Source: Anaerolineales bacterium (lineage in GTDB: Bacteria > Chloroflexota > Anaerolineae > Promineifilales > Promineifilaceae). From it: a DNA stretch of 39,240 nt. The stretch is from positions 1 through 39,240 of the forward strand of contig WTJY01000362.1 in assembly GCA_011524645.1 (NCBI GenBank). Direction: 5' to 3'. The notes beneath the pieces were generated by a model, which was not told the DNA's origin, did not search any database, and worked only from the letters and a program-made list of their open reading frames with translations. Below, piece by piece: positions 2,805 to 16,243 of this stretch. The position numbers were made by a program, and so were the translations under genes. Numbering within the stretch: position 1 is the stretch's first letter; every line of letters begins with the position of its first letter.

Positions 2805-4220
2805 TTATGCTGTTCCAAGTCGGGTGAAAACGCCCATTTGGCTGGGTGCACCCACGGCCGGATCTTCTGGACCGAGAGGCAAAAAGCGCACCGCATAGCC
2901 GTGCCGGTTGGCGACTTGTTCGGCCCATGTGGCGAATTGGGCGCGGGTCCATTCAAAGCGATGGTCTCGGTGTCTGAATTGACCGGCCGGTAATGATTCG
3001 AACAACACATTGTATTCTGCGTTGGGGGTGGTCATGGCGACCAATGCAGGGCGTGCATGGCCGAAAAGAATGCGCGAAAAAGAATCGAGACGGGATTCAT
3101 CTAAATGCTCGATTACTTCAACGACGGCCGCTGCATCAAACCCTTGCAGACGATTATCTTTATAAGTTAATGAGCCATGTAGTAGCTTGATACGATCTTT
3201 TTGATGAATCGGCAAGCGGTCCAAGCGGAGACGACTTTGCGCCATTTCTAGGACCCGATAGGAAATATCGAGCCCTACAATTTGTTGAAACTGTTTTTCA
3301 CGCAGTAGCTTGCCGAGCAAACGCCCTTCGCCACAGCCTAGGTCTAAAACGCGCTGAGCGCCACTCCCTTTGAGGACCGCTAAAACGGTATTGAGCCGTT
3401 GCTCGTGCAGGCTAAGTGGCCGTTCAAGTTTGTCTTCTTCCGCTTGTTGGGATTCATCAGTCGTCTCTTGGTCTGTTGTGCCATCGGCGATAAGCAAACG
3501 GGCCAGCGCGTCTTGGGTGAGTGAGCGATGGAAACGCAAATAACGTTGCGTAATCAGCTCTTTTTCCGGATGCTGGCTGAGCCACCGTTCCCCTTTTTCC
3601 AGCAATTTTTCGACTTCATGCTGGCCGACATAATAATGCTTAAAGTTGTCGAGTACGGGAATGAGCACATAGAGATGAGATAACAGATCAGCTAAACGAA
3701 CGGTGGCACGCAAATCGAGGGTCAAGTAGCGACTTTGACCCCAGTCAGGAAAATCGGGATCGAGCTGATGCTCTGTTAATTCGATTTCGTAGCCGAGCGG
3801 TTCAAATAGACGGCGTAAAAGTCTTCCTTTGGAGTTGTCTGGCACGGCCGTTACCCGCACTTCGAGCGGAATGGGGGTGTCGGCAAGCTCTTGCCGATCT
3901 TTGCTTCGGCCGTTGAGTGCGGTGCCATAGACTTGCGAAATCGCGACACTCAAAAATGAAGATGCGGCATACGGCCGGTCATTGACATACTGTTGTAGCG
4001 TAAACCCGCTGTCTTTTTTGCGCCCTTTGCCACGGACCAATTGGATCGGATCGATGTCGAGTAACAACACGGCCGTGCATCGCTCTTCTGTCGTTTCCGT
4101 AAAAAACACATGGGCTTGCCCGACTGCGAGCTTAAAGCTCTGTTGCCGTGCTGGATGTTTGTGTAAAAGATAACCTAAATCGGTTGCTGGTGAATGTGTG
4201 GTTGTGATTTTTAATAACAT
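2805..4220 (-). CDS. hen1: Hen1 3'-terminal RNA ribose 2'-O-methyltransferase
   Basis: Hen1 methylates the 2'-OH at the 3' end of broken RNA before Pnkp seals it, which makes the repaired RNA resistant to a second cut. The 471-residue protein has the bacterial-type N-terminal region that works with the Pnkp ligase (about 1-245), a Glu/Gln-rich linker and a C-terminal SAM methyltransferase. Motif I is VLDLGCGEGR at 291-300. The metal-binding signature is EVIEH (E368, E371, H372) followed by FRHRDHRFEW around 415-424. The start ATG at 4220 has no clear Shine-Dalgarno sequence and lies within one arm of a long inverted repeat (4219-4307), so its translation may be conditional. It sits downstream of a GbsR-like regulator and upstream of pnkp. 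Confidence 0.95.
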   Translation of the reverse strand: MLLKITTTHSPATDLGYLLHKHPARQQSFKLAVGQAHVFFTETTEERCTAVLLLDIDPIQLVRGKGRKKDSGFTLQQYVNDRPYAASSFLSVAISQVYGTALNGRSKDRQELADTPIPLEVRVTAVPDNSKGRLLRRLFEPLGYEIELTEHQLDPDFPDWGQSRYLTLDLRATVRLADLLSHLYVLIPVLDNFKHYYVGQHEVEKLLEKGERWLSQHPEKELITQRYLRFHRSLTQDALARLLIADGTTDQETTDESQQAEEDKLERPLSLHEQRLNTVLAVLKGSGAQRVLDLGCGEGRLLGKLLREKQFQQIVGLDISYRVLEMAQSRLRLDRLPIHQKDRIKLLHGSLTYKDNRLQGFDAAAVVEVIEHLDESRLDSFSRILFGHARPALVAMTTPNAEYNVLFESLPAGQFRHRDHRFEWTRAQFATWAEQVANRHGYAVRFLPLGPEDPAVGAPSQMGVFTRLGTA

Positions 4221-15050: not shown

Positions 15051-15268
15051 CCCCCTTCGTTTGTGCGAAATGCGCAGAAAATTCCCTTAGAAGTGGCAAG
15101 AATGATGATTTTTTTGCCGTGTTATTTCCTTTCCGTCACAATTAATTTAATTGGCAAACGTCAAGATTGTTTCGTTGTTATCATGAGTTGCTTTGTGGTG
15201 GATTGGAGGCTCAGTAGGTTTACCATATAGGCTCTCAATAGGCTATTTGTTTTTCACAAGGAGGAACC

Positions 15269-16087
15269 ATGTCTGTAGAAATTTCATCTCAATTTGGTGG
15301 CCAAGGGGGCCAAGAATTTATCATCCATTTGCAAGAAGATTCAGAACGCATTGTGGCTATTCAAGGCACGGCCGGAGATTTCGTGGATGCTTTTCAAATC
15401 ATTTCACTGAACGCTGCCGGACAATACAGTGAACTTGACGTTGTGGGTGGCTCTGGCGGCCAACAGTTTTTGTTCGAACTTAATGATGGGGAATATTTGA
15501 CCGGAATTAGTGGCCGTTATGCTGGTTTTATCGATCAAATTCAATTCCATACGAACCTTCGCACTTCTCCAATTTATGGGGGGGCTGGTGGTCAGAAATT
15601 CGCGCTTCATGCTCCGGCTGGGGCAGAAGTGGTTGGATTTGCGGGCCGTGCCGATTGGTATATCGATGCGATTGCGATTGTGACACGTCCTTTGGCTGCG
15701 CCCAGTGTAGTTGAAACCGCGACTGAAGCGGTAACCAAGACGATTGTCGCTGCGCAAGAATTGGTTGCTGAGAAAGTTGCCGATGTCAAAGAAAAAGCGG
15801 CCGAAGTCGTTGCTGCCGTGCGGGAAGCGAAACCGAAAGATCTGCAAAAAATCGAAGGGATCGGCCCGAAAATCTCCCATATTTTGGTTGAAAATGGCAT
15901 CCCTGATTTGGCCGCCTTGGCGGATACCCAAGTTGATAGCTTGAAAGGGATTCTTAAAGATGCCGGATCACGCTATAAATTAGCCGATCCGACAACTTGG
16001 CCAGAACAAGCCAAGGTTGGTGTCGATGAAGGGATGAAAGCGTTGAAAGCGTTTCAAGCGAAGTTGAAAGGTGGAAGACGCAAATAA
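15269..16087 (+). CDS. Three-fold jacalin-like beta-prism fused to a helix-hairpin-helix domain
   Basis: A 272-residue protein with an unusual pairing of domains. Residues 1-141 contain three similar units, each opening with GGxGGQxF (10-17, 60-67, 104-111) and ending in a G-x-x-G....hDxhxh strand (about 26-46, 75-95, 119-139). This is the layout of a jacalin-related mannose-binding-type beta-prism with clear three-fold symmetry. Residues 145-190 are an Ala/Glu/Lys-rich helix or coiled coil. Residues 190-265 form a helix-hairpin-helix region (LQKIEGIGPKISHILVENG) of the kind found in predicted flap-endonuclease-like DNA-binding proteins. There is no signal peptide, so it is probably cytoplasmic. 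AGGAGG precedes the ATG. Ligand and role are unknown. Confidence 0.8.
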   Translation: MSVEISSQFGGQGGQEFIIHLQEDSERIVAIQGTAGDFVDAFQIISLNAAGQYSELDVVGGSGGQQFLFELNDGEYLTGISGRYAGFIDQIQFHTNLRTSPIYGGAGGQKFALHAPAGAEVVGFAGRADWYIDAIAIVTRPLAAPSVVETATEAVTKTIVAAQELVAEKVADVKEKAAEVVAAVREAKPKDLQKIEGIGPKISHILVENGIPDLAALADTQVDSLKGILKDAGSRYKLADPTTWPEQAKVGVDEGMKALKAFQAKLKGGRRK

Positions 16088-16198: not shown

Positions 16199-16243
16199 AA
16201 AGTCTCCCAAAAGCTATCACGGTACTTTTTGGGAGACTTTTTC
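16199..16243 (+). terminator. Rho-independent terminator after the lectin/HhH gene
   Basis: A 14-bp stem AAAGTCTCCCAAAA (16199-16212) pairs with 16227-16240, then TT-C-TTTT. It separates the lectin/HhH gene from the mevalonate cluster. Confidence 0.85.

Follow-up and report, generated by a model that had tools for sequence, protein, structure and literature searches.

What a sugar-binding type of fold and a helix-hairpin-helix (HhH) domain do together in one bacterial protein is the question raised by a gene of the window, i.e., the whole stretch of 39,240 nucleotides from an Anaerolineales bacterium that was analyzed in this study. The lectin-HhH gene spans positions 15269..16087 (+), stop codon included, and encodes 272 amino acids (aa). 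A Shine-Dalgarno-like AAGGAGG (15258..15264, +) lies a short distance 5' of the ATG, and a terminator-like inverted repeat with a T-rich end (16200..16239, +) was read by eye from the sequence; it is absent from the list of the repeat scan because its loop exceeds the length permitted there. The gene is flanked by genes for an AEC-type transporter (Pfam Mem_trans) and an HMG-CoA reductase, the latter opening a set that also includes an HMG-CoA-synthase-like gene, a thiolase gene, and an OB-fold (ChsH2_C) gene. No glycan or granule genes directly adjoin it based on the open reading frame (ORF) list and Pfam, and the neighborhood of lectin-HhH proteins was not conserved between genera in the loci compared. 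In a related locus from Chloroflexaceae bacterium SL_3_2 (L034), the ORF directly upstream of the lectin-HhH gene (3293-3871) presumably belongs to the Uma2-type nuclease family, judging by its look.

The first part of the protein (aa 7-137; 15287..15679, +) was identified as a jacalin-type beta-prism by Pfam (PF01419, 82.6 bits with the threshold at 22, E=4.7e-23), an AlphaFold2 model, and Foldseek. The model, which like that of the tail was built from a two-sequence alignment of the window protein and its L034 relative, showed a beta-prism I fold with three Greek keys at pLDDT 67-94 across ten-residue blocks. Mannose/glucose lectins were the nearest solved folds in Foldseek, with banana lectin foremost (E 1.8e-14, TM (target) 0.83). 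Repeat analysis located three GG loops at aa 10-14 (15296..15310, +), 60-64 (15446..15460, +), and 104-108 (15578..15592, +), and the alignment placed an Asp at all three sites: Asp40 in GDFVD of site 1 (15386..15388, +), Asp89 in AGFID of site 2 (15533..15535, +), and Asp133 in DWYID of site 3 (15665..15667, +). The strict GXXXD motif is found at site 1 only. The GG loop and the Asp of GXXXD are reported to be involved in mannose binding (PMC4059138), and banana lectin is described as precipitating glycogens and other branched alpha-glucans (PMC6272006). Beta-prism I, GG loops, and sugar-site Asp residues are held in common with jacalin-related mannose/glucose lectins such as banana lectin, griffithsin, and ZG16p; unlike these, the window protein is bacterial and predicted to be cytoplasmic, carries a fused HhH tail, and keeps the strict motif in a single site.

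The prism is built from three similar units, as had been claimed from the sequence: GGQGGQEF, GGSGGQQF, and GGAGGQKF begin at aa 10, 60, and 104, and the unit-versus-unit identities (14/34, 14/38, and 14/38) were each equalled by none of 2000 shuffles. The units are equally alike within the window protein (36/36/36% in global alignment), and unit 1 shares 36% with its own units 2 and 3 versus a mean of 31% with its counterparts in other proteins. A recent triplication, which the original prediction had read from this symmetry, is not supported: for 32 of the 33 repeats in 11 fused proteins, the best match was the same-position repeat of another protein over the protein's own paralogous repeats, so the triplication is older than these 11 proteins.

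The C-terminal HhH module (aa 186-272, hairpin GIGPK at aa 197-201; 15824..16084, +) was delimited by Pfam, an alignment of tails, a tail model, and structural matches. The Pfam match to HHH_5 (PF14520, aa 190-227) was marginal, scoring 27.2 bits with the threshold at 27. Modeled alone, the tail reached pLDDT 85.5 and had no Foldseek match at E 0.001; in a structural second look, the HhH of Pol theta/Hel308 scored highest (Z up to 10.1), followed by NusA AR2 (Z 8.0) and the RadA N-domain at Z 7.5. Middling Z values are frequent with small helical models of this kind, and folds missing from the lists are no evidence of absence. The model and these matches agree on a helix-hairpin-helix fold. 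Structure prediction had been named in advance as the possible refutation of the two-fold architecture, and it gave a prism for the first half and HhH for the second, in agreement with Pfam, Foldseek, and the structural second look. The two halves are joined by a linker rich in Ala, Glu, Val, and Lys (15698..15826, +). It had been described as an Ala/Glu helix; the Ala richness holds (29% over aa ~145-187), but the helix drawn by the model is of low confidence (pLDDT < 50) and is not established.

The lectin-HhH protein lacks an export signal and begins at the first prism strand, from which we infer that it is cytoplasmic, as had been supposed. A Met stands 9 residues before the first GG in all 11 fused proteins, and in seven of them no more than 16 in-frame codons precede it, a stretch too short to encode a signal peptide.

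The search for the same domain order retrieved 11 proteins from two class-level lineages, comprising the finds of the genome draws and L034. The pairing that had seemed odd is therefore not a one-off, and the odd part is the tail. In the family of the window, a jacalin domain was present in nine of 52 genomes, eight with the tail and one (G017) without. The class draw yielded a jacalin domain in 12 of 298 genomes, of which G017, G049, G182, G187, G301, and G329 showed no tail next to it; the phylum draw yielded five of 400 genomes, all five with the tail. In the tree of jacalin domains, the 11 fused domains fell on one side and eight unfused domains on the other (support 96/94). L034 grouped in this tree with genomes of its own phylum, which points to Chloroflexota for the window's genome as well. 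Ten of the 11 jacalin-linked tails formed one clade (100/99), with the truncated, long-branched tail of L040 outside, although its constraint inside the clade was not rejected (p-AU 0.39); an earlier tree with nine jacalin tails held all nine together (67/98). Since the fused jacalin domains group together and ten of 11 tails form a clade, the fusion would most simply be a single old event passed on as a unit. No full-length relative was found in phage and plasmid collections (80% query coverage in none of five plasmid records), and no relative in viral contigs. A photosynthetic reaction-centre chain (8yy9_O) was considered as a relative and set aside, with E values of 0.022 and 0.46 only; a literature search combining RC-LH1 and HhH returned nothing.

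The pairing itself is already on record. A 2017 review lists HHH_5 among the partners of jacalin (PMC5536079), the same Pfam pairing as in the window protein, named by abbreviation only in the legend of Fig. 1 and not taken up in section 6 of that review. No discussion of the lectin-HhH protein or of the spread of its tail was found in the literature searched, subscription papers being largely outside its scope.

Our leading interpretation, to which we assign a probability of about 0.4, is a cytoplasmic tether resembling PhaH, with a lectin head that would hold an intracellular glucan or mannan, perhaps glycogen, on the nucleoid. The jacalin-type head would use two or three GG-loop/Asp sites to bind a polymer of the mannose/glucose type, and an HhH tail of the PhaH kind would bind the nucleoid regardless of sequence. 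The protein could thereby hold the polymer, with glycogen as the first candidate, along the chromosome for spacing and for sharing at division. This reading is drawn from the PhaH layout, the likeness to banana lectin, the Asp residues kept at sites 2 and 3, the glycogen-recognition proteins of congeners, the Lys- and Arg-rich linkers, the basic character of jacalin-linked tails, and the presence of a further tail on a wax ester/TAG synthase.

PhaH of Caulobacter crescentus is the best-studied relative of the tail. According to a 2025 review (PMC13052382), it is a granule-to-nucleoid tether, with an N-terminus on poly-3-hydroxybutyrate (PHB) granules and an HhH C-terminus on DNA nonspecifically, and it spreads the granules along the nucleoid. 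Both proteins share a layout of head, linker, and C-terminal HhH, with tails homologous by profile. In the NCBIfam PhaH model (NF045508), aa 143-249 of the window protein, partly linker, matched profile positions 123-229 of 234 (E 8.2e-7), consistent with a PhaH-type C-terminal HhH tail; the tail alone gave no match at E <= 1e-3. The whole-protein score was 29.4 against a cut-off of 250 bits, and a jacalin head takes the place of the PHB-binding phasin N-terminus. A literature search for tethers between glycogen granules and the nucleoid through HhH, CBM48, or lectin domains found nothing pertinent besides this review in the portion of its matches that was listed (12 of 45).

Additionally, three of four congeners encode a glycogen-recognition head (AMPK1_CBM/CBM48, recognized by Pfam in L052 and L053 and by BLAST in L054) attached to a tail of this family through linkers with 48-53% Lys+Arg. 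These proteins resemble the window protein in combining a carbohydrate-binding head with this tail, and differ in head fold, in the Lys-rich linker, and in the position of their tails, which lie outside the jacalin-tail clade. Within the genus of the window, the tails on ribosomal L4, CBM48, and NuoB form one clade (100/93), so the tail passes from gene to gene among related genomes. That jacalin simply took the place of CBM48 on an unchanged tail within this genus is contradicted both by this separate clade and by the grouping of the window tail with other jacalin tails; the jacalin head may have replaced the CBM48 head functionally.

The charge of these regions bears on DNA binding in both directions. 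The 11 jacalin-linked tails had a mean net charge of +1.3 versus -3.25 for 61 other tails (Mann-Whitney p 1.5e-5, uncorrected for relatedness), and the lectin linker of G020 contains 40% Lys+Arg. In six genomes of one genus, by contrast, the linkers between head and tail are 191-320 aa long with net charges of -45 to -76, so DNA binding is not favored there. The acidic middle region was observed in L035, L036, L037, L038, L039, and L042, and gave no Pfam match in the copies of L047 and L049, the two that were scanned.

A glycogen-synthase-type gene occurs in all nine jacalin-bearing genomes of the family; as it is nearly universal there (45 of 52 genomes), its presence discriminates little. 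In one fusion carrier (G652, 99% complete), the search for a PF08323 glycogen synthase gave no match at E <= 1e-10, and the G345 and L034 genomes had weak PF08323 matches only. Given G652, glycogen could be the general ligand only if it is made in another way. The original prediction had also offered modified DNA or a nucleotide sugar read jointly by both halves, for which we found no positive evidence; a tether between sugar polymer and DNA, which resembles the polysaccharide-DNA contacts that it likewise mentioned, is better supported than such a composite ligand. If the tether interpretation is correct, carbohydrate stores would be positioned on the bacterial chromosome as polyester granules are, by a single kind of tail whose head, lectin or CBM48, can be exchanged.

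The tail is also found far from any lectin. An alignment of 26 tails defined a module of ~85 aa with the signatures IEGIGPKI and TWPEQA, which matched in 49 of 52 genomes of the family (E <= 1e-6) and in 65 of 160 genomes of the class that were at least 90% complete (E <= 1e-18). Its partners by profile include ribosomal L4 (in the window's own genome), L20, L21, and S16, the complex I subunits NuoB and NuoI, the ATP synthase gamma subunit, and a wax ester/TAG synthase, and many further carriers were judged by eye to be proteins with one transmembrane segment; partner frequencies are not representative, as 20 further regions were taken per search and most were picked because a returned locus adjoined a long ORF. 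NuoI was assigned by profile in L150. L145, L147, and L141 resemble NuoI in sequence; the first two matched nothing beyond two-cluster ferredoxin domains, and L141 gave no NCBIfam match at 1e-20. NCBIfam models themselves matched the 26 tails at E <= 1e-3, namely those for NuoE (22 of 26), L21 (22 of 26), PhaH (18 of 26), and S2 (17 of 26). Because this mobile tail is carried by many unrelated proteins, the HhH half says little about the ligand of the lectin.

We observed individual carriers with the tail on L4 (L002), L20 (L056), S16 (L099), L21 (L105 and L151), NuoB (L096-L098), and NuoI (L150), and within one genus the tail rides on different proteins in different species. No literature on the tail of L21 was found. 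Four ATP synthase gamma subunits (L157, L158, L159, and L160, from genomes G212, G136, G057, and G109, respectively) end in the HhH tail, an odd site for a domain of DNA-binding type.

This range of partners brings in the main alternative, which we consider somewhat less likely than the tether: the tail may be a protein-docking module, comparable to the NusA AR domains, through which complexes that bear it meet one another or a shared partner. The lectin would then join ribosome- or membrane-associated assemblies, where it would read a precursor or a protein that is glycosylated. For the tails on ribosomal, respiratory, and ATP synthase subunits, docking fits as well as DNA binding, and it is consistent with the many carriers with one transmembrane segment, with NusA AR2 among the nearest folds, and with the net acidic charge of most tails in the wider family. 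However, the equally near RadA N-domain and Hel308/Pol theta folds belong to DNA-handling proteins, the jacalin-linked tails exceed the rest in basic charge, and the HhH of PhaH is reported to bind DNA (PMC13052382).

A broader and, in our judgment, unlikely variant of the tether is that the HhH tail serves as a general nucleoid address tag hopping between genes, bringing ribosomes, complex I, ATP synthase, membranes, and lipid, polyester, and carbohydrate stores to the chromosome; the lectin-HhH protein would then be the carbohydrate form of this tag, a 'glyco-phasin' that does for polysaccharide what phasins do for polyester. With the tether proposed above, the role of the tail on ribosomal proteins, complex I, and the ATP synthase gamma subunit becomes testable.

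It is improbable that the lectin head has drifted away from carbohydrates to another role and that the protein is a scaffold. Such drift would agree with the strict GXXXD of the window protein at site 1 only and with the replacement of the site 1 Asp in five of the 11 fused proteins (four Asn and one Tyr; Asp in the other six). The Asp residues of sites 2 and 3 are nevertheless kept in 11 of 11 proteins across the two class-level lineages, and several relatives retain GWYID at these sites.

Least probable is a sensor of sugar-modified (e.g., glucosylated) foreign DNA, in which HhH would hold the DNA and the lectin read the sugar with a TIR effector in some genomes: an EAD7-TIR-FGE gene, whose TIR resembles defence TIRs, is the divergent neighbor of the lectin gene in three of six genomes of one genus (L046, L047, and L048) and is located within 1 kb of it in L049, but it is ~8.5 kb off in L045, the contig ends in L050, it was not seen in the window, L044, L034, L116, or L117, other neighbors are common to these loci too so that plain synteny may account for it, and the lectin has neither a PADLOC match nor a viral relative.

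The neighbor in question is an EAD7-TIR-FGE-sulfatase fusion, identified by Pfam in L047 (6734-8260) and by sequence likeness in L046 (9363-11039), L048 (4812-6335), and L049 (9961-11658). In addition, the window itself encodes a Pnkp (kinase-phosphatase-ligase)/Hen1 pair by Pfam (228-2792, -, and 2805-4220, -), a bacterial RNA end-repair system, and the methyltransferase part of the Hen1-like ORF also matches PADLOC mad2.
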